From NCBI GenBank assembly GCA_030600605.1, contig JAUVLT010000012.1, positions 1 to 36,850 of the forward strand: a stretch of DNA of 36,850 bases. Direction: 5' to 3'. The position numbers and the translations under genes were made by a program. Below, piece after piece: positions 19,554 to 34,077 of this stretch; the stretch's first letter is position 1, and each line of letters begins with the position of its first letter. This stretch comes from Mycoplasmatota bacterium (lineage in GTDB: Bacteria > Bacillota_I > Bacilli_A > Izemoplasmatales > Izemoplasmataceae). The notes under the pieces were generated by a model. The model did not search any database. It had not been told where the DNA came from and saw only the letters and a program-made list of their open reading frames with translations.

Positions 19554-19608
19554 ATGGACTTTTAATATTGATTTGTTGTAGTGTAAAATGTAAATTGAAG
19601 TTGTATAA

Positions 19609-19702
19609 AATAAATATTTCAAGGGCAACTACGTGGAAACATGTATACGCAAAGTCACAGGGCTAATGGAATACCAATGCCGGCTGGACCGCAATATTTA
19701 TT
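19609..19702 (+). promoter_or_regulatory. c-di-GMP-I (GEMM) riboswitch aptamer
   Basis: The GEMM core is clear. P1 is a 10-bp helix (19609-19618 with 19693-19702). Then come AAGGGCAA, a hairpin ACGTG-GAAA-CATGT with the GNRA tetraloop, ACGCAAAG (19647-19654), and GGGCTAA with the second hairpin TGG/CCA and ATGCCGGC. By comparison with the Vc2 aptamer, the position that discriminates ligands (G20) is a G at 19624, as expected for c-di-GMP rather than cGAMP, and the intercalating A47 corresponds to 19651. The aptamer ends 141 bases before the first mreB and has a terminator in between. Whether c-di-GMP turns the operon on or off cannot be read from sequence. Confidence 0.87.
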
Positions 19703-19703
19703 A

Positions 19704-19759
19704 ATAAGATTATCTAATTTTTTGCAATTGCACTCAAAAAATTATTTTTGCTATCTTAT
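19704..19759 (+). promoter_or_regulatory. Hairpin between aptamer and terminator
   Basis: ATAAGAT (19704-19710) pairs with ATCTTAT (19753-19759), and inside it AATTTTTTG (19716-19724) pairs with CAAAAAATT (19735-19743). It directly follows the aptamer's P1 helix and may be part of the expression platform. Confidence 0.45.
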
Positions 19760-19772
19760 ATATTGTGTAAAT

Positions 19773-19813
19773 AAACGCCCTGAATTATTTTGGGGCGTTT
19801 TTTGTTTATTTTA
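19773..19813 (+). terminator. Intrinsic terminator, riboswitch expression platform
   Basis: AAACGCCC (19773-19780) and GGGCGTTT (19793-19800) form an 8-bp GC-rich stem followed by a long T-rich tract. It lies between the aptamer and the first mreB, so readthrough must be controlled for the operon to be expressed. The P1 3' strand TTTATT could pair with AATAAA at 19770-19775 and open the stem base; this is a guess. Confidence 0.8.
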
Positions 19814-19843
19814 TACACAAAAAATATATTTAGGAGGAAATAA

Positions 19844-20875
19844 ATGGGTGAAAGAGCAAAAGGCAAGATGAATGTTGGAGTTGATCTTGGGACATCAAAT
19901 CTTCTAATCTATGTGGAAGGTCGAGGTACAGTATTTAATGAACCATCGATTATTGCTGTTGATAAAGCTAGAAAAAAGGTTGTATCTGTAGGATTTGAAG
20001 CCGCAGGATTAGTTGGTAAAGTACATGACAAAGTCGAAGTAATTAAGCCGTTAAATGGTGGAGTTATATCTGACATTGATATGATTCGAGAGATTTTATT
20101 ATTCACTTTCGAAAAAGTATTTATGTCAAGTATAGACAGTATTAACAAATTGTTAATATGTATTCCATCAGAAATAACGGAAACTGAAAAAGCAGCTATT
20201 ATGAAACTTGGACATGAACTAGGAATTGAAAACACATACATTGATGAAGAAATAAAAGCTGCTGCACTTGGTGGTGGAATTGACATTTATACACCATCTG
20301 GACATTTAGTTGTTGATATTGGTGGAGGGACAACAGACTTTGGTGTGTTATCACTTGGAGAAGTGGTAAATTCAAAATCAATCAAAATAGCAGGTGATTA
20401 TTTTGATAAACAAATCACTACCTATGTAAAAGAAAAACATAAACTCGAAGTTGGTCCACAAACTGCTGAAAAAATCAAAGTAGCATTGGCATCGCTTACT
20501 GGAGACTTACCTCAAGATGAAGAAGGAAAAGTACTTACATATAGTGCAATGGGTAGAGATTTAGTATCTGGTTTACCACAACAAGTTAGTATTAACGCAA
20601 AAGAAATAAGAGGGATTTTATTAACTTGTTTTGAAGCAATTAAGGCAACACTTATCTCAACTTTAGAATCAACACCACCTGAACTTGCAGGTGATTTAGT
20701 GGATAATGGAATACATATTACAGGTGGCGGAGCACACATCAAAGGTGTAAAAAAATATTTTGAAGATGTTACTGGGGTAGAAGTTCAAATTTCTAAGGTT
20801 CCTATGACAGCCGTTATAAACGGTACTAAGAAACTTTTAAAAATTGATAAAAAACACTACTTTGGGGAATTTTAG
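19844..20875 (+). CDS. mreB: MreB-like actin homologue, paralogue 1
   Basis: 343 residues. Bacterial actin that polymerises with ATP on the inner face of the membrane. Phosphate-1 DLGTSN (14-19), phosphate-2 DIGGGTTD (158-165) and the adenosine motif TGGGA (293-297) are intact, so it should bind ATP. Where classical MreB has EEPMAAAIGAG, this one has EEIKAAALGGG (135 on), with Pro replaced by Ile and a Lys added, a change shared by all three paralogues. It is the first gene after the riboswitch, with TAGGAGG as RBS. No mreC, mreD or rodA follows, unlike the classical wall-elongation cluster. Confidence 0.9.
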   Translation: MGERAKGKMNVGVDLGTSNLLIYVEGRGTVFNEPSIIAVDKARKKVVSVGFEAAGLVGKVHDKVEVIKPLNGGVISDIDMIREILLFTFEKVFMSSIDSINKLLICIPSEITETEKAAIMKLGHELGIENTYIDEEIKAAALGGGIDIYTPSGHLVVDIGGGTTDFGVLSLGEVVNSKSIKIAGDYFDKQITTYVKEKHKLEVGPQTAEKIKVALASLTGDLPQDEEGKVLTYSAMGRDLVSGLPQQVSINAKEIRGILLTCFEAIKATLISTLESTPPELAGDLVDNGIHITGGGAHIKGVKKYFEDVTGVEVQISKVPMTAVINGTKKLLKIDKKHYFGEF

Positions 20876-20885
20876 GAGGATTATG

Positions 20886-21899
20886 ATGGCAAAAAAAATC
20901 GGAATCGGTGTTGATTTAGGTACTGCTAATTTATTAGTATACCTTGAGAAAAAAGGAATCATCTTTAATGAACCTTCAGTAATATCCTTTGATCGTGAAA
21001 GTGGAAAAATCGTTGCAGCTGGTGCTGACGCACACAAGATGCTAGGAAAAGTCCACAGTAAAATATCTGTAATAAAACCACTAAAAGACGGAGTAATTAG
21101 TGATATGAGAGCTGCGAAATCTTTACTATCATTTGTTCTAAAAAAAGTTGAGAATTTAACAGAGAAACAATTATCAAATACTTCATGTGTTATTTGTTGC
21201 CCATCTGAAGTAACAAATATTGAAAGAGATATTATGATTGAATTAGCACTTAATATGGGTATTAGTGATGTTTTTATTGAGGAAGAAATTAAGGCAGCTG
21301 CCCTTGGTGCTAATGTTGATATTTTTAAATCAAAAGGCGTGATGATTGTCGATATAGGTGGTGGAACTACCGATGTTGGTGTTTTATCATTTGGAGACAT
21401 TGTATTATCACGAACTATCAGAATGGCAGGAAGTTTTATTGATTCTGAAGTTGCAAAACTAGTTAAGAAAAATGATCGAGTTGAAATTGGAGAATTAACT
21501 AGCGAAAGAAGTAAAATTGAATTAGCAGATTTAAGAGAAGATGCACCATTTGTTGAAAACAGATATGCGGGTAGAGATATTGTTAGAGGTGTACCAAAAT
21601 GGGTTCACATTTCTAGTGATGATGTAAAGAAAGTCATAAATCCAGCTTATGAAGAAGTAGTAAAATTAATTGCCGCTGTATTAAAAGATACACCACCGGA
21701 ACTATCAGCTGATATATTCCAAAATGGAATATTGTTAACTGGTGGTGGAGCATTAGTAAGAGGTGTAGAAGATTTCATAAGTAAACGTATTAAAGTTCCA
21801 GTAAAAGTAGTAAGTAATCCTTTAACTTGTGTGGCAGAAGGATCAAAATACTTACTTAAAAATCGCGGGGATTATTTAATTAATCCACTGCAATTATAA
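20886..21899 (+). CDS. mreB: MreB-like actin homologue, paralogue 2
   Basis: 337 residues, full length. DLGTANLLVYL near the start (Asp10), DIGGGTTD (156-163) and TGGGA (285-289) keep the nucleotide-binding set. The catalytic-side loop reads EEEIKAAALGAN. It is clearly related to paralogues 1 and 3 but not near-identical, so the duplication is old. AGGAGG overlaps the stop of the first gene, which couples translation. Two ATGs occur in a row at 20883 and 20886; the second has the better spacing. Confidence 0.9.
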   Translation: MAKKIGIGVDLGTANLLVYLEKKGIIFNEPSVISFDRESGKIVAAGADAHKMLGKVHSKISVIKPLKDGVISDMRAAKSLLSFVLKKVENLTEKQLSNTSCVICCPSEVTNIERDIMIELALNMGISDVFIEEEIKAAALGANVDIFKSKGVMIVDIGGGTTDVGVLSFGDIVLSRTIRMAGSFIDSEVAKLVKKNDRVEIGELTSERSKIELADLREDAPFVENRYAGRDIVRGVPKWVHISSDDVKKVINPAYEEVVKLIAAVLKDTPPELSADIFQNGILLTGGGALVRGVEDFISKRIKVPVKVVSNPLTCVAEGSKYLLKNRGDYLINPLQL

Positions 21900-21912
21900 A
21901 GAGGTGAAAAAA

Positions 21913-22956
21913 ATGATTATGGATAATAATAGACTTACGAAATCAAAACATAAATATATTAAAATTGGAATTGATTTAGGTACAGCGAACCTATTAGTTT
22001 ATGTTGATGGTGAAGGAATTATTTTTAATGAACCTTCAGTGATTTCAACAGATTATGAAACAAATGAAGTTATCGCAATTGGTTTCAATTCAGCTAGAAT
22101 GATCGGAAGAGGACATCACGGAATTAGAATAATTAGTCCTTTAAATCGTGGAGTTATTTCTGATATGGATGCTGCAAAGAAATTAATTGAAATAGCAATA
22201 AGAAAAGCAGAAAATATTGATATAAATTTAAAAGCATCTACTGTATTAATATGTTGCCCTAGTGAAGTAACGCAACTTGAAAGAGATGCTATGATTGATT
22301 TAGCACACACATTAGGAGTACCTGATGTCTTTATAGAAGAAGAAGTTAAGGCAGGAGGTATCGGTGCTGGATTAGATATTTATAGTTCAAATGGTTCAAT
22401 GGTTATTGATATTGGAGGAGGATCAACAGATATCGGTGTTTTATCTTTAGGAGATATCGTTGTAAGTGATTCGATAAGAATCGCTGGTAATTATTTTGAT
22501 CAAGAAATAATTAATCATCTTCAATATGTTCACGGGCTTTTAATTGGTCTGAAAACTGCTCAAAGAATTAAAGAAGAAATTGGGACTTTAAGAGAAGTAA
22601 TCGTTGATGAAAAAACAACACATGCTAATGGGCGAGATGTTGTAACAGGATTACCTCGAAAAATTGAAGTAACACAAACAGAAATAAGAGACATTTTAAT
22701 AGAACCTTTTAATACTATCTCAACAGCTATTTTAAAAGTTTTACAAAATACACCAGCTGAGTTATCAGCAGATATTATTGAAAATGGTATGTTAATAAAT
22801 GGAGGGTGTGCATTAATTGATGGTGTTGATGAGTTTTTAGAAAAATCTATTGGATTAGACGTTCATATAGCGAAAAATCCTCTAACAGCGATTGTTGAAG
22901 GAACAAAGGTATTACTTCAAAACCGTGGAAACTATTACGTAAAACCAGTTGATTAG
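21913..22956 (+). CDS. mreB: MreB-like actin homologue, paralogue 3 (divergent nucleotide site)
   Basis: 347 residues with a 15-residue basic N-terminal extension before the fold starts. Phosphate-1 DLGTAN (21-26) is kept. Phosphate-2 is DIGGGSTD (166-173), and the adenosine motif is NGGCA (296-300) in place of TGGGA, a departure from both paralogues and from classical MreB. The catalytic loop is EEVKAGGIGAG. It may bind or hydrolyse ATP differently and act as a specialised partner, as one MreB paralogue does in Spiroplasma; this is inference. GAGGTGA eight bases before ATG 21913 selects the start. Confidence 0.88.
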   Translation: MIMDNNRLTKSKHKYIKIGIDLGTANLLVYVDGEGIIFNEPSVISTDYETNEVIAIGFNSARMIGRGHHGIRIISPLNRGVISDMDAAKKLIEIAIRKAENIDINLKASTVLICCPSEVTQLERDAMIDLAHTLGVPDVFIEEEVKAGGIGAGLDIYSSNGSMVIDIGGGSTDIGVLSLGDIVVSDSIRIAGNYFDQEIINHLQYVHGLLIGLKTAQRIKEEIGTLREVIVDEKTTHANGRDVVTGLPRKIEVTQTEIRDILIEPFNTISTAILKVLQNTPAELSADIIENGMLINGGCALIDGVDEFLEKSIGLDVHIAKNPLTAIVEGTKVLLQNRGNYYVKPVD

Positions 22957-22962
22957 GCAAAT

Positions 22963-24411
22963 ATGAAAAAAAGAAACGCATTACTGGGTATATTGCTGTT
23001 TCTTCTATTAACTCTCGTATTTAACACATTTCAAAGAAAAGAAATTATTAATATTATTTTGAGTATGATGAGTTTTGTTACTCTTCTATTCTATTTAAGA
23101 ACCAAAGATGAAATCAAATTAGTTATATCAAAAAGGATTATTTTTACTAAATACGGGAAAAAGAAAATAAAGGATCATTATGCTATTTTCTTAGAAATCT
23201 CTAATCTTATGACTTATAGTCAGTTCTATGACATAAATCTAAGTGATCAAATATTAAAACAAGTATATAATCAGTTAGTTAAAAAGATGGGGAGAAATCA
23301 TGTTTTCTTATACCGAACAGATCAAATTGTTGTAATATTACAATTTAAAAATACAGCAATTATAAATCAATTATTAAGATATGAAGAACAATACCGGAAT
23401 ACAAAACAGATACTTAACTTTATATCTAGGATATCATTTAAAATTGATAAAGAAGAAGAAAACTATGAAATATCTTTGGTAGCTGGTTGTGCTTCTATTG
23501 GAATTAAAAATGACATAAATAGCATTGATGAAATAATTAAGTTAGCTCATTTTTCAATGCTAAAGGCAAAAGATAGTGGAGCCGAAATTGTTGTTGCTAA
23601 TGAAGAAATCCATACCATTAAACAGGACTTAGATAGTTTTAATCAAGAAATATCAAATGGTGTTAAACTAGATGAGTTCTCGCCTTTCTTTCTTCCGATA
23701 ATCGATGTTGCTTCAAATAAAATTGTTGGTTGTGAAAGCTTGGTAAGATGGCAAAAAAACAAATACCGAATAATTGAAACTGCTAAATTTAAGGACATAG
23801 CTTTAGAAAAGAATTTATTTGAGAAAATAGATAAAAGAGTTATTGAAAAAACTTTTCTAGCTTATAGTTCATGGCAAAAAAATAAAATAATAGGAAAAGA
23901 CTTTCGAATTACAATTAACTTAAGTCTTAAAAGTCTATTGTCTTATAAGCCTTATGAGTTAGTTCATTTGGCAGAGGATTACAGAGTAGATCCAAAAAAT
24001 GTTGAGTTTGACATTTCCGAAGATGATATTACATCGGATAAAGCACTTCGTGCGATTTCTAATTTAAAGAAAGCTAAATTCATGGTTTCTATCGATGCCT
24101 TCAATACCAAAAATTTCTCACCTAAAGCCTTATTGAATATTGATTTTGATATTCTTAAGATAAATAAATCAAATCTTCCTGAACTTGAATTGACAGAGCG
24201 GGAGTACGGGTTTTATACAACGCTAATCAAGTTTGCTAGAATGATGAAATTGAAGGTCTTACTAAAAGGAATAGAAAATAATAAACTACTTAAGTTTGCT
24301 AAAGAACTTGAAGTAGATTATGTTCAGGGGTACTACTTCACACCACCTCTAGATGAAGTGAACATTCTTATATTTCTAAAAAAGTATAAGCAAGGTATCC
24401 CTACTATCTAG
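22963..24411 (+). CDS. Membrane protein with degenerate GGDEF and EAL domains, probable c-di-GMP receptor
   Basis: 482 residues. Two transmembrane helices (about 6-22 and 28-46), then a GGDEF-like domain with RTDQI (118-122) in place of GGDEF, so no cyclase activity. The EAL domain (about 228-480) keeps Glu258 (ESLVRW), Asn319, Lys399 and Gln455 but has lost others: the DD pair is Asp378-Ala379, the Glu of ExxE is Asp, and the general-base region AEGVE reads LKGIEN with Lys435. Phosphodiesterase activity is therefore unlikely. Dual-degenerate proteins of this build (LapD, FimX) bind c-di-GMP and signal to partners. It starts six bases after mreB3, so it belongs to the riboswitch-controlled operon. 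Confidence 0.85.
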   Translation: MKKRNALLGILLFLLLTLVFNTFQRKEIINIILSMMSFVTLLFYLRTKDEIKLVISKRIIFTKYGKKKIKDHYAIFLEISNLMTYSQFYDINLSDQILKQVYNQLVKKMGRNHVFLYRTDQIVVILQFKNTAIINQLLRYEEQYRNTKQILNFISRISFKIDKEEENYEISLVAGCASIGIKNDINSIDEIIKLAHFSMLKAKDSGAEIVVANEEIHTIKQDLDSFNQEISNGVKLDEFSPFFLPIIDVASNKIVGCESLVRWQKNKYRIIETAKFKDIALEKNLFEKIDKRVIEKTFLAYSSWQKNKIIGKDFRITINLSLKSLLSYKPYELVHLAEDYRVDPKNVEFDISEDDITSDKALRAISNLKKAKFMVSIDAFNTKNFSPKALLNIDFDILKINKSNLPELELTEREYGFYTTLIKFARMMKLKVLLKGIENNKLLKFAKELEVDYVQGYYFTPPLDEVNILIFLKKYKQGIPTI

Positions 24412-24413
24412 AT

Positions 24414-24449
24414 AGAAAAGGAAAATCCCCATTTTCCTTTTCTTTTTTT
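24414..24449 (+). terminator. Intrinsic terminator of the mreB operon
   Basis: A perfect 13-bp stem (24414-24426 with 24431-24443), loop CCCC, and seven more T residues. It separates the operon from the coiled-coil gene. Confidence 0.9.
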
Positions 24450-24517: not shown

Positions 24518-27166
24518 ATGGTCCAAAAAAATGAAATGCTTGAAAAAACGATAAATAAAAACTACGGAGTAGTCCAAAAAAAGGAAAATGAACTTGCTGA
24601 AAGTATCATCAAAATGACTAAGGATTTTTCAACAAATACTAATAATTATAATAAAACATTAAAACAAGAGTTGAAAATCCATATAGGGTTAGATAGTGAA
24701 ATTAAGAAGAAATATGTAACTAAATTAAAAGAAATAAACTCAAATGATGTTTCTCATTTGAAAGATATTGAGAGTCGAATTAAAGATTTCCAATTAGTTC
24801 ACCAAAAAGAACTGAAAGAAAGCTTGGACAAGCTTAACAAAGAGAATGCAAAATTAAATAATAATACAGAACTATTAAAAAAAGAACACGAGAAGCAAAT
24901 TTTTGATATCGATACAAAACATAATAATGATATTGAAAATAGTGAAAACGAGAAAAACCAAATTAATGTAAATGCAGATAAGGATATTAATAACCTACAG
25001 TCTAACTTAAAAGAAACTCAGGATAAATATGAGACTTTAGTTGTTAGTTTTAACGAAAAAAGAGATGCTAAATTAGAAAAACTCAAAGTAACTTCTGCTA
25101 AAAAAATCGAAAAACATACTGCTGATATTGAAAAAGAACAACTTAAAACTGATAAAAATATTATTGATTTAAAACCGCCATTTGAAGAAAAATTAGCTGA
25201 AATTGAGAAAAAACTTGCTGTTGAAAAAGAAAAATATCAAAAAAAAGAAGCGGCAATTAAATCAACACTTGAATCAAAAGTTGCTAGACATGAAAAATTT
25301 ATGAATAAGTCGATGAAGGATAATGATCAAAGAGCTGTCAAACAACATAAAAAAGAAATCAGTGTTCTAGAGAAAAACGCAGAAAGAGAATTAAGACTTT
25401 TTGCAAAAGAACATGGGGACAGATATAATATTTTAAATAATATGAAAAAGGAAATTATTACTAAGAATTTAAATAAGATTGCATCATTTGAAAATGATTT
25501 TGTTAATTTTAAAGAAAATAGATTATATCAAATTGAACAGTGCAAAGTTACTTTAACTAATGATTTAGAAGTAACTACCTTAAAAACAAAACAACAGTTA
25601 GAAGATGAATTAAACAAATACAATGAGTATTTTGCTGATAATGATCGTAAACAAGTTGAAGTAATTAAACAAAAAGAAATGGATATCGAAAAACAAGTAG
25701 ATATTCAAGCGAACTTAAAGATTGCATATGATAAAGTAAATCAAATCAATGAAGTGAAACACCAAGAATCTTTATCTCTTATAGACAAACAATTAAAAAA
25801 TGCTGAGATTACAAAGTCATCAGAAGAAGTATCATCAAAACTAGTATTAGATGTAGCCTTAACAAAAATAGAAAATGAAAGATTAGTAGCTGAAAAAGAA
25901 TTGATTCAGTCTATTAGAATTAATGAAGAAAATGAGCTTATTGAATATCATGATGTTGATTTCAATAAACAAGCAAGTATTAATAATGAATACTTAAGTC
26001 ATCAAAAAGAATATACAGGTTTATGTAAAGAGAGAGCGGATTCTATTTTTGAGTATGAGGAAATAGAATTGAATAACAGATATAATCTAAAAGAAGAATT
26101 TCTTAAAAAACAAAAAGCAATTTTAAGTGGTAATTACGATGCGATTGTGAATAAGATTAATCAAGTGTATGAATCTGAGAAAAGCTTTTTTGATTTAGAA
26201 ATTAATAAACTTGCTCAAAATGCCCTAGAAGAACTTGCTAAATTTGAAGAAATGTCAAAAAAAGAAATTAAAATAATAGTTGATAAAAGAAATGCTCTTG
26301 ATCCAAGAGCATACAAAAAAGAAATTAAATCATTAGATCGTGAAATTTCCGATAAAAAGGAAAACCTTGAATTAGAAATAAAAAAGAGAAATGCAGCAAT
26401 TAATAGTAAAACTGCTTTATTTAATACGGGAATAAAACAAGCAACAAGTAGACAACAAACCGCGTTAAATGAAGTTAAGGTTTTAGAGAATTATGGACAA
26501 AGCAGATTTGATGTTTCAATTCAACTAATCGAAAAAGCAAGAAATGAAGAATTAGCAAATATTAAAGAAAGATTATCTCAAATTGCCAATGATTCAAAAA
26601 ATTTCTTTGCTCAAGCTACAGATAGAAATAGACTAATGACACAGGAAAATACTGAATATCAGAAAAAACGTATTCAAAAAGAAGAAATAATAATTAAAGA
26701 TACTAAAACTACTTTTGAACAAGAAAAGCATTCATTTACTAATGCATTAGAACATGCTTTGGCTGGTTTAGATAATCTAAAGAATGAAAAAAATAGTGAT
26801 ACAAAGAGTAAACTACTAAATGAAGAAGAACTATTTGAAAACAAAATAAAAAATTATGACAGTCAAATAAAATCTTACGAGAAAGCTTCTTCAGAAATTG
26901 CTAGTACAAGAGTGAATGATTATAGATTAGAGTCAAATAAAATTAATTTGAAATATGAAAACCATTTAAAAAGAGTATCAAGTGAACATAATGTTAAGAT
27001 TGATAAATACAAAGTTAACACTGTTGAAATAGATAGAGAAACAAATGCTGAACAAAGAACATTCGAGACTGCTAAAAAGCAAATCAAGAAGAATCATGAT
27101 GATGCATTAGCAAAAGGGTTAGCTACTATCAATCAAAAGCTTCAACAAGATATTAGAAATATTTAA
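24518..27166 (+). CDS. Giant coiled-coil protein (882 residues)
   Basis: I do not recognise a named family. Almost the whole length is charged helix rich in Lys, Glu, Asn and Ile/Leu at heptad spacing, with no membrane segment, signal peptide or Walker motif. Pro is nearly absent: DLKPPFEEK (about residue 220) and ALDPRAYKK (about 590) are the visible breaks. Only a few Cys occur. Such a protein should form a long rod, possibly a filament or scaffold. It sits directly after the mreB operon but has its own promoter and terminator. It could be a cytoskeletal partner, comparable in position but not in sequence to fibril-type proteins of motile Mollicutes. Strong RBS AAAGGAGG. Confidence 0.75.
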   Translation: MVQKNEMLEKTINKNYGVVQKKENELAESIIKMTKDFSTNTNNYNKTLKQELKIHIGLDSEIKKKYVTKLKEINSNDVSHLKDIESRIKDFQLVHQKELKESLDKLNKENAKLNNNTELLKKEHEKQIFDIDTKHNNDIENSENEKNQINVNADKDINNLQSNLKETQDKYETLVVSFNEKRDAKLEKLKVTSAKKIEKHTADIEKEQLKTDKNIIDLKPPFEEKLAEIEKKLAVEKEKYQKKEAAIKSTLESKVARHEKFMNKSMKDNDQRAVKQHKKEISVLEKNAERELRLFAKEHGDRYNILNNMKKEIITKNLNKIASFENDFVNFKENRLYQIEQCKVTLTNDLEVTTLKTKQQLEDELNKYNEYFADNDRKQVEVIKQKEMDIEKQVDIQANLKIAYDKVNQINEVKHQESLSLIDKQLKNAEITKSSEEVSSKLVLDVALTKIENERLVAEKELIQSIRINEENELIEYHDVDFNKQASINNEYLSHQKEYTGLCKERADSIFEYEEIELNNRYNLKEEFLKKQKAILSGNYDAIVNKINQVYESEKSFFDLEINKLAQNALEELAKFEEMSKKEIKIIVDKRNALDPRAYKKEIKSLDREISDKKENLELEIKKRNAAINSKTALFNTGIKQATSRQQTALNEVKVLENYGQSRFDVSIQLIEKARNEELANIKERLSQIANDSKNFFAQATDRNRLMTQENTEYQKKRIQKEEIIIKDTKTTFEQEKHSFTNALEHALAGLDNLKNEKNSDTKSKLLNEEELFENKIKNYDSQIKSYEKASSEIASTRVNDYRLESNKINLKYENHLKRVSSEHNVKIDKYKVNTVEIDRETNAEQRTFETAKKQIKKNHDDALAKGLATINQKLQQDIRNI

Positions 27167-31182: not shown

Positions 31183-31217
31183 GTAAGTTATGACTAACAC
31201 ACATGAGGAGAGAAAAA

Positions 31218-32678
31218 ATGTTAAAAAAAATTACAGAATTACTAATGAGAAGTCCGATGAAAATAATAATTATTGGTGGAGCAATATTTGTTGCATTACT
31301 TGCTGGGGTTACTCAAGTTGAGTTAAAAACAGGAAATGAAACATTAATTCAAACAGACACAGATGAATACATTGATAATTTTGAATATCAAGCAGAATTT
31401 GGTAGTGATCCAATTATTGTTATGTATAAAGGTGACTCTTTGGAAGATTTATTCACTGTCGAAAACATGGAGTATATGAATCAGTTAGAATCTGAGTTAT
31501 CTCATTATGATGAAATATTTACTGTGAACAGTCCAGTTTCATTAGTGAATCAATTTGCATCGATGCAAGCAACACAATATGAAACAGCTTTGTTGGAACT
31601 ATCAACTGGGCTAAGTGAAGTATCTACTAATTTGGAACAAATGAGTGTATTACTATCATCAAATGGTGATGCAGGAGATATAGAATCAACATTATTGCAA
31701 TTAAATACAGCAATTGATTCAATGATTATTGGCCAAGAGAATTTGGGAATTGGTGTTACAGGTTTATTAACATCTTACGCTACATTTAGTACACAGCTAT
31801 TAGCAGTATCTGACAGTATTAATTTAATCATTACTGATTTAAGTGCTGATCCATTGTTAAGTGAAGAAGTTGCAGATCTTACTACAGCTAACTCACAAAT
31901 AATTGCGATGGCAAATCAGATGAGTGCAATTACAACAAGTGATGCTGCAGCTTTGCCTACTATTACAAGTAATACAGTTACTGGACTTGGAAATATTATT
32001 TTAGGTCTTACAGGAATGATTGAAGATCAAACATTAATGGCAGCTCAGATTACGATGTTATCAGATAATTTATCAACTATATCTAGTAATTTGAATCTAA
32101 TGAGCGTAAATCTGGGAATGATTCATAATAATTTTAATGTTCTTACACCTTCAATACCAACAGAACAATCAACACTTGATTTAATGATTTATGATGAAAC
32201 CGGAGAAATAAGAAGTATGTTCTCAGAATTTGTTATTGATGAACAAAATATGATGTTTATTATTGTATTAGAAGGAGAAATATCAGATGATGTTAAAAAT
32301 GATATTATTGATACTATTATAGTTACTTTAGAAGAACAAGGTATAACTGATTCTACTTTAGTTTCAGGGAAACCTGTTTTAGATATGTCTATCAAAAATG
32401 CAATGATGGAAAGTATGCAATTAATGATGGGGCTTTCAGCCCTCATTATGATTGGAGTATTACTTATTGTATTTAGAATTAGATGGAGTTTATTACCACT
32501 TGGAATTATTTTAATTGCAGTAGTAGCAACAATTGGAATCATGGGATGGTTAAATATTGGATTAACCCTTGTTTCTATGGCCGTATTCCCTGTTCTGATA
32601 GGACTTGGGATTGATTATGCTATCCAGTTCCAAAGTCGTTATACAGAAGAATTAGCAGGAGGACAATACAATGGATAA
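31218..32678 (+). CDS. RND/MMPL-family exporter, N-terminal half
   Basis: 486 residues: helix 1 (about 13-33), a large extracytoplasmic part (about 35-395) and helices 2-4. The last helix ends in the RND hallmark GIDYAIQFQSRY. The extracytoplasmic part contains long Ser/Thr/Leu-rich heptads (e.g. LSTGLSEVSTNLEQMSVLL), predicted to form a helical hairpin. An RND exporter normally has 12 helices in one chain of 850-1050 residues; here the chain stops in the cytoplasmic loop between helices 4 and 5, and the next gene supplies the rest. The ATG at 31218 follows GAGGAG by seven bases. RND proteins of this type move lipids or hydrophobic drugs. Confidence 0.85.
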   Translation: MLKKITELLMRSPMKIIIIGGAIFVALLAGVTQVELKTGNETLIQTDTDEYIDNFEYQAEFGSDPIIVMYKGDSLEDLFTVENMEYMNQLESELSHYDEIFTVNSPVSLVNQFASMQATQYETALLELSTGLSEVSTNLEQMSVLLSSNGDAGDIESTLLQLNTAIDSMIIGQENLGIGVTGLLTSYATFSTQLLAVSDSINLIITDLSADPLLSEEVADLTTANSQIIAMANQMSAITTSDAAALPTITSNTVTGLGNIILGLTGMIEDQTLMAAQITMLSDNLSTISSNLNLMSVNLGMIHNNFNVLTPSIPTEQSTLDLMIYDETGEIRSMFSEFVIDEQNMMFIIVLEGEISDDVKNDIIDTIIVTLEEQGITDSTLVSGKPVLDMSIKNAMMESMQLMMGLSALIMIGVLLIVFRIRWSLLPLGIILIAVVATIGIMGWLNIGLTLVSMAVFPVLIGLGIDYAIQFQSRYTEELAGGQYNG

Positions 32679-34077
32679 TCAAAACAAATCAAGAAACGCA
32701 ATTAGAAATACTATCAAAAAACTAGCACCAGCGATTATGACAGCTTTAGTAGCTACTGCTTTAGGGCTACTAAGTTTATATACATCACCCGTTCCAATGA
32801 TTCAAGATTTTGGTAAAATGTTAACAATTGGAATGATAGTTAGTTTTATTGTTGCTTTAATGATAATGTTACCAATTTTGTTTGTGAGAGATCATTATTT
32901 CTTTGCAAATAAAAAACTTAAAAAAGTTAAAAAAAGTAGTAAGTTTGAAAAAGTAATGAGAAAACTTACTAAAGTTACTTTAAAATTAAAATATCTAATT
33001 TTACTTTTAGCTATTTCAACAGCTGCTATTGGGATCTATTACGATCAAGAAGTTGGTGTTGAAACAGATATTGAAACGTTTATGCCACAAGACACAGAAG
33101 AATTAGAAGATATTCAAGAATTAAGAGGTATCTTAGGATCAACTGAACAATTGTCAATTGTTTATAGTAGTTATGATATTTATTCTGATATCAATATTTC
33201 TTGGATCGAAGACACAACAAATAATCTTTTATTAGAATTTCCAGATGAAATAATTTCAGTTAGATCAATTACAAGTGTTTTAGATCAATTAACGGATGAA
33301 GAACTAACATCACAATTAGCTAATGAATTAACTGAAAATCTTCCGGAAACACAACTAAAAATGCTTGTTAATGATGATCAAACACAAGGTGTTATAATTA
33401 TTTCGATAAAGGATTTAGAATCAGATGAACTTGGTGCATTTATTGATGAACTTGGTATTTACTTATCAACAACTACTACAGATATGGATTTAACAGTTAC
33501 AGGACAAGCAGTTATTGATGTTGAAATGATTACTGCTTTAACTACTGGTAGATACACAATAACATTAGTTGGAATGGCATTAGTGTTTTTAGGGTTATTA
33601 TTAATTTACCGTAATCCTTTGAAAGCAATTATTCCATTAATACCGATTAGTTTAATTGTTGGATGGTCTGGAGGATTCATGTATATCTTTGGATTAGACT
33701 ATACACCATTAACTGCGACATTAGGAGCTCTGATTATTGGAATAGGAACCGAATTTACTATCTTAGTTATGGAACGTTACTATGAAGAAAGAGACAATGC
33801 ACTTAATAATAATGAGGCTATTGAAATAACAATTGGAAAAATTGGTAAACCAATTATTGCCTCAGCTTTAACAACTATTGGTGGATTTAGTGCATTAGTT
33901 ATTTCTGACTTTGAAATCTTAAGTAATTTTGGTATAATGACATTAGTAAATATATCACTAGCACTACTAAGTACATTAATTGTAATGCCGGCAGTATTGT
34001 CATTACAATTTAGTGTTATATCTATTTTTAGAAGAAAGAAAAAAAAGGAACTAAATCTTAGTTATTCTGAGGTGTAA
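32671..34077 (+). CDS. RND/MMPL-family exporter, C-terminal half
   Basis: 468 residues: helices 5-6 (about 18-70), a basic loop, helix 7 (about 105-123), a second extracytoplasmic part (125-285), and helices 8-12. The second hallmark GIGTEFTILVMERYYEE is present. It overlaps the first half by eight bases. AGGAGG (seven bases before the ATG) lies within the coding sequence of the first half, which favours a true two-gene arrangement with coupled translation. A single-base removal at the junction would also join the frames, so an insertion or sequence error remains possible. It ends with GAGGTGTAA, which doubles as the RBS of tetR. Confidence 0.85.
   Translation: MDNQNKSRNAIRNTIKKLAPAIMTALVATALGLLSLYTSPVPMIQDFGKMLTIGMIVSFIVALMIMLPILFVRDHYFFANKKLKKVKKSSKFEKVMRKLTKVTLKLKYLILLLAISTAAIGIYYDQEVGVETDIETFMPQDTEELEDIQELRGILGSTEQLSIVYSSYDIYSDINISWIEDTTNNLLLEFPDEIISVRSITSVLDQLTDEELTSQLANELTENLPETQLKMLVNDDQTQGVIIISIKDLESDELGAFIDELGIYLSTTTTDMDLTVTGQAVIDVEMITALTTGRYTITLVGMALVFLGLLLIYRNPLKAIIPLIPISLIVGWSGGFMYIFGLDYTPLTATLGALIIGIGTEFTILVMERYYEERDNALNNNEAIEITIGKIGKPIIASALTTIGGFSALVISDFEILSNFGIMTLVNISLALLSTLIVMPAVLSLQFSVISIFRRKKKKELNLSYSEV

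Follow-up and report, generated by a model that had tools for sequence, protein, structure and literature searches.

Bacterial second messengers are best known for their action on flagella, pili or matrix. The locus described here raises the question of whether one of them, c-di-GMP, also acts on the actin cytoskeleton, to which it appears in this case to be wired straight. The stretch of DNA analysed (hereafter the window; 36,850 nt, contig JAUVLT010000012.1 of the Mycoplasmatota assembly GCA_030600605.1) contains a GEMM-I aptamer, a terminator, three mreB paralogues and a membrane protein with inactive GGDEF and EAL domains, all of which a sequence-only reading had described with positions and descriptions that proved right (Table 1). 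The transcript would begin with the aptamer and its terminator and continue as one operon encoding MreBs of clades M1, M2 and M3 and the dead GGDEF-EAL protein; the messenger would set MreB amount through the RNA and MreB activity through the protein. The explanation favoured here, with somewhat better than even confidence, is a conserved and horizontally spread module by which c-di-GMP controls the sole MreB cytoskeleton of wall-less bacteria. The recurrence of the aptamer-mreB-sensor package in relatives and in spirochaetes suggests that c-di-GMP directly controls the cell-shaping or moving machinery.

In our reading, the parts are known and their combination is new. As in known GEMM-I riboswitches (RF01051), a full-length aptamer above the gathering score is followed by a terminator, whereas the target here is an MreB set. 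No such target, and no description of a c-di-GMP riboswitch linked to MreB, was found in the open-licence PMC literature, including that on Izemoplasma/Izimaplasma and Sphaerochaeta, in agreement with the earlier statement that no case of this combination had been described.

Table 1. Features of the riboswitch-mreB locus, in window coordinates.
Feature	Position	Strand	Basis or remark
Extended P1 stem, 5' strand (GUAUAAAAUAAA)	19601-19613	+	Near presumed transcript start; alignable in 13/13 leaders
c-di-GMP-I (GEMM-I) aptamer	19614-19696	+	RF01051, cmscan, 57.2 bits, E 8.7e-9, full length
5' P1 region (UUUCAAGGGC)	19617-19626	+	Can pair with 19777-19784; MFE fold, RNA truncated before terminator 3' arm
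3' P1 strand (CGCAAUAU), switching element	19690-19697	+	Complementary to 19760-19767
Anti-P1 element (AUAUUGUG), directly before terminator	19760-19767	+	AUAUUG(U/C)(G/A) at same place in 13/13 leaders
Intrinsic terminator between aptamer and mreB1	19773-19800	+	Pattern scan
Terminator 5' arm and loop (GCCCUGAA)	19777-19784	+	Predicted antiterminator partner of 5' P1 region; MFE fold
mreB1 (clade M1), 343 aa	19844-20875	+	PF06723, 350 bits
mreB2 (clade M2), about 337 aa	20886-21899	+	PF06723, 363 bits; tree
mreB3 (clade M3), about 347 aa	21913-22956	+	PF06723, 373 bits; best PDB match Spiroplasma MreB3 7E1C; tree
Membrane pseudo-GGDEF/pseudo-EAL protein, predicted c-di-GMP receptor, 482 aa	22963-24411	+	EAL 147.7 bits
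Terminator at operon end	24414-24443	+	Pattern scan; next same-strand terminator with clear T run

Aptamer, operon and host

The aptamer is the only Rfam match at gathering level in the whole window (cmscan), and its significant score, against an RF01051 gathering cutoff of 35 bits, bears out the riboswitch proposed by the sequence-only reading; both sequence and structure agree with the family. Among 13 homologous leaders, the extended P1 stem is paired in 97.8% of cells and the aptamer helices covary, with two-sided changes at 10 pairs, a level reached in 0 of 500 shuffles and far above that of slid controls. A chance aptamer is ruled out by the covariance-model score, the covariation and the conservation, and an aptamer serving another gene by the conserved arrangement and by there being no gene between it and mreB1. 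The case for RNA control of the mreB operon is strong on conservation grounds, and the proposal that MreB levels are set through RNA is well supported by the covariance-model score and by the conserved position before mreB1. The host genome carries two GEMM-I aptamers in total, the other of which (L002, G000:C60:63964-64046) lies ahead of a gene for a membrane protein whose GGDEF motif is intact, a possible feedback on c-di-GMP synthesis. In a related genome, three tandem GEMM-I aptamers lie within about 500 nt (G053:C10:77844-78344).

Gaps within the four-gene cluster measure about 6-13 nt, with ribosome-binding sites visible in the sequence; the likely mreB starts were set from these sites and from homologue lengths. 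All three products belong to the MreB/Mbl family (PF06723) and keep DLGT, the catalytic E and GGG(T/S)T, and mreB1 orthologues in Izemoplasma-type and Spirochaetia genomes are 65-88% identical. A Pfam search of the host genome found these three as its only full MreBs, a result that, like the wall-less state discussed below, goes beyond the earlier reading; a fourth match, partial and located in a 611-aa frame, was rejected as probably DnaK. Just downstream of the module, an 882-aa ORF (24518-27166) has no Pfam match and a coiled-coil-like composition; counterparts of similar length, conserved as neighbours but fast-evolving (23-51% identity), occur at several Izemoplasma loci and are missing next to the module in L088 and in spirochaetes. 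Further on, two overlapping ORFs (31203-34077) together encode a split HAE3/MMPL-type transporter.

The named relatives of the host are Candidatus Izemoplasma/Izimaplasma MAGs. No PBP transpeptidase was detected in any of 61 related genomes, and no MreC match was obtained in 17 module carriers, with a model that also misses some control genomes; the host is therefore most likely an Izemoplasma-type wall-less bacterium. Its genome contains 13 GGDEF matches, 11 of them above cutoff, from which it probably makes c-di-GMP.

Terminator, anti-P1 element and direction of the switch

A hairpin with a U-run follows the aptamer in all 16 leaders (weakly in L112), and a pattern scan found 8 terminator-like sites in the region against 1.6 expected. 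In 13 of 13 leaders, the 3' P1 strand has an AUAUUGYG partner (G-U allowed), situated 11-19 nt ahead of the point at which the terminator 5' arm ends. The resulting anti-P1/3' P1 helix measures 8-10 bp in all 13 Bacilli-type leaders and in that of one spirochaete, L113, in which an AUAUUGYG-type partner is kept despite a much longer platform. L139 combines UUGCAAUAUU with AAUAUUGUAA, a compensatory change in this helix, and L088 shows a one-sided change. When the RNA was folded up to the terminator loop, most leaders showed the 5' P1 region paired with the 5' arm of the terminator (MFE); taken alone, this antiterminator helix did not rise above shuffles except in L139 and, more weakly, in L084 and L085.

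The conserved anti-P1 helix and the truncated folds with the antiterminator, taken together, favour c-di-GMP as the OFF signal, and the riboswitch is quite likely a transcriptional OFF switch. With c-di-GMP, P1 would close, the terminator would form and the operon would be shut; without it, the conserved AUAUUGYG element would capture the 3' P1 strand, and the 5' P1 strand, thus released, could occupy the terminator 5' arm, leaving the operon to be read. GEMM-I ON switches exist, and ligand-free full-length MFE folds often hold the terminator, which makes a ligand-free OFF state conceivable. An ON switch, by which c-di-GMP would raise MreB and MreB would build a sessile or elongated rather than a motile form, is nevertheless unlikely: no conserved element was found in the leaders whereby P1 closure would break the terminator, in several of them a freed AUAUUGUG would lengthen the base of the terminator instead of weakening it, and the truncated fold favours the anti-P1 helix together with the antiterminator. 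Since the anti-P1 helix and the terminator often coexist in full-length MFE folds, the direction depends on kinetics, which the fold energies leave out along with tertiary ligand contacts.

The membrane pseudo-GGDEF/pseudo-EAL protein

The AlphaFold2 model of the fourth gene product (mean pLDDT 82.9) combines a GGDEF and an EAL fold with two N-terminal helices (residues 2-25 and 28-48), and Foldseek matched it to GGDEF-EAL structures, with a target TM of about 0.85 for the EAL domain. The GGDEF domain scores 19.2 bits, below the Pfam cutoff of 23.8, and lacks the diguanylate cyclase motif, which reads RTDQI in the window protein and is absent from the aligned homologues. In the EAL domain, DDFG has become DAF, without its second Asp, and xEGVE has become KGIE, without its Glu; in alignment with solved EAL enzymes, E258, N319, D378, K399 and Q455 are kept, while three positions are altered (E to D350, D to A379 and E to K435), and the window protein does not hold the complete catalytic and metal-binding set. 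An active phosphodiesterase is ruled out on these residues. Lysine 435, at the position of the catalytic Glu, is invariant in a 15-sequence set from Izemoplasma and spirochaetes, and in a set of 19 sequences this position differs only in the proteins of f5, another Bacilli family; speculatively, the lysine may stand in for the lost metal. One f5 locus (L147, 4705-13349) carries a MreB2-MreB3-EAL-343aa unit in tandem duplicate, with an EAL protein that is degenerate differently (TKIE) and no adjacent GEMM-I.

The window protein is read here as a conserved, non-catalytic and putatively ligand-binding pseudo-enzyme, and the balance of the residue evidence inclines us to predict that it binds c-di-GMP without hydrolysing it. 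The earlier proposal of a receptor fits both the conserved pseudo-enzyme signature and the conserved linkage. It might instead be a feedback enzyme (a weak phosphodiesterase) or a passenger, with the RNA alone coupling c-di-GMP to MreB; retention of the EAL signature Glu, N319, K399 and Q455, and a faster evolution than that of the MreBs (35-79% against 73-88% identity), would suit this alternative, which seems improbable given that the catalytic Glu has become an invariant Lys and the metal ligands have changed (D to A and E to D) across Izemoplasma and Spirochaetia. Moreover, no complete locus lacks the linked gene, which comes first in L089, accompanies MreB2 and MreB3 in L147 and is retained in Sphaerochaeta, where the aptamer is missing. 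As a receptor, the protein would hand the signal on, at the membrane, to the MreB filaments, a hypothesis that we rate about as likely as not.

With LapD-type degenerate GGDEF-EAL receptors it shares a membrane anchor and the degeneracy of both domains; unlike LapD, it has a short two-helix membrane hairpin and no periplasmic output domain. LapD is among the weaker Foldseek/NCBIfam matches, PA0575 and MorA being better fold matches, and membership of the LapD family proper (NF045673) is ruled out by an NCBIfam score of 36.5 against a cutoff of 1020 bits.

Distribution of the module and kinship of its MreBs

An MreB-like match (E 1e-40) was obtained in only 12 of the 61 relatives, each of which carries the module set, or as much of it as the contig holds. 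Fourteen Bacilli loci include the DNA upstream of mreB1 (the window, G001, G002, G005, G007, G014, G016, G017, G023, G028, G034, G151, G302 and L097), and every one of them has the aptamer directly before that gene, in at least three genomic contexts; so do, at the same place, three Spirochaetia (L098, L112 and L113); conservation of the aptamer before mreB, which the sequence-only reading had called for in relatives, thus holds for every Bacilli relative that could be checked. It is the sole GEMM-I in G151 and in the genomes of the three spirochaetes (G410, G416 and G420). G052 falls outside this count because its contig starts 146 nt before the EAL gene; three other contig ends with GEMM-I do not overlap the EAL-gene contig. 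Complete loci retain the order mreB1-mreB2-mreB3-EAL, whereas the genes on either side are not the same in G023, in G151 and in the spirochaetes; this contrast sets the borders of the module. In the spirochaete MAG locus L112 (7986-10881), mreB1 and mreB3 appear to be interrupted by a frameshift or stop.

The genes occur without the aptamer in L111 (labelled Clostridiales) and in ten Sphaerochaeta/Spirochaetales loci (L100-L109), and two Sphaerochaeta leaders (L100 and L102) gave no Rfam riboswitch match even at E 5. Sphaerochaeta keeps the four module genes without the aptamer and can thus do without RNA control. A search of five spirochaete genomes (G410, G411, G412, G414 and G416) for full MreBs yielded those of the module and no others, and a single PBP transpeptidase was found in each spirochaete carrier, these five included. 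The Sphaerochaeta genomes searched (L102 and relatives) gave no canonical spirochaete MreB, their only full MreBs being the three of wall-less type. The non-spiral spirochaetes form one clade (PMC12236494), and the module is a candidate explanation for their cell form, some of them being in culture (Sphaerochaeta halotolerans).

In a tree of 114 MreB proteins, each of M1, M2 and M3 forms a monophyletic group (support 1.0) in which Izemoplasma and spirochaete members are mixed, M2 and M3 reaching into two more Bacilli families. Spiroplasma MreBs form a clade of their own on the module-MreB side, apart from the walled-type proteins, with a support of 0.73 only; SMreBs have also been described as distant from walled-type MreBs (PMC8432965). 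The active-site Pro of IEEP is present in all 10 walled-type proteins and in Thermotoga; every MreB of the module, of f5 and of f10 has I, V or L in its place. Among PDB entries, MreB1 matches Spiroplasma MreB5 best, and MreB3 matches Spiroplasma MreB3 best. The tree strengthens the likeness to the multiple MreBs of Spiroplasma noted earlier: the SMreB1-5 swimming cytoskeleton provides the nearest solved relatives (7BVY and 7E1C), lies, at the modest support just given, on the same tree side and likewise comprises several differentiated MreBs in wall-less cells. The module differs in having three MreBs in the distinct clades M1-M3, in its linked GGDEF-EAL protein and c-di-GMP aptamer, and in that no fibril gene was identified in its cluster.

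In a minimal wall-less cell, a pair of differentiated Spiroplasma MreBs is enough to produce helicity and swimming (PMC9710875). The output of the module is offered as a hypothesis: high c-di-GMP would give round, non-moving (surface-attached) cells, and low c-di-GMP would permit MreB-driven shape change or movement. A static role only, in shape, division or chromosomes and not in movement, with c-di-GMP as one of several inputs to expression, appears somewhat doubtful; Sphaerochaeta carriers are described as spherical (PMC12236494), and a cultured Izemoplasma relative, which may or may not carry the module, is coccoid and non-motile (PMC8397711), but the three differentiated MreBs appear to group with the Spiroplasma motility set, and MreBs are absent from 49 of the 61 relatives, which argues against a housekeeping function. 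On the preferred reading, of MreB-driven change under c-di-GMP control, the module would provide a relative of the Spiroplasma swimming actins that is free-living and regulated, making the origin and control of MreB-driven movement testable. A wider proposal is that of a mobile second-messenger-to-actin module in which the riboswitch switches the production of three cooperating wall-less MreBs and the linked pseudo-EAL receptor gates their filaments. In non-spiral spirochaetes this module would have taken the place of the ancestral MreB, and it would be the regulated, free-living relative of the system that gave rise to Spiroplasma swimming. As a whole, this proposal is rather doubtful and is put forward tentatively.

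Multi-MreB clusters of another Bacilli family, f10, which we take to be perhaps Haloplasma-like, share M2- and M3-type MreBs with the module and differ from it in having no M1, no adjacent EAL protein and no GEMM-I in the loci read. At four f10 loci (L145, 9047-10933; L140, L144 and L146), genes for a protein of about 625 aa are interspersed among the MreB genes; in L145 this protein carries a C-terminal PIN domain.
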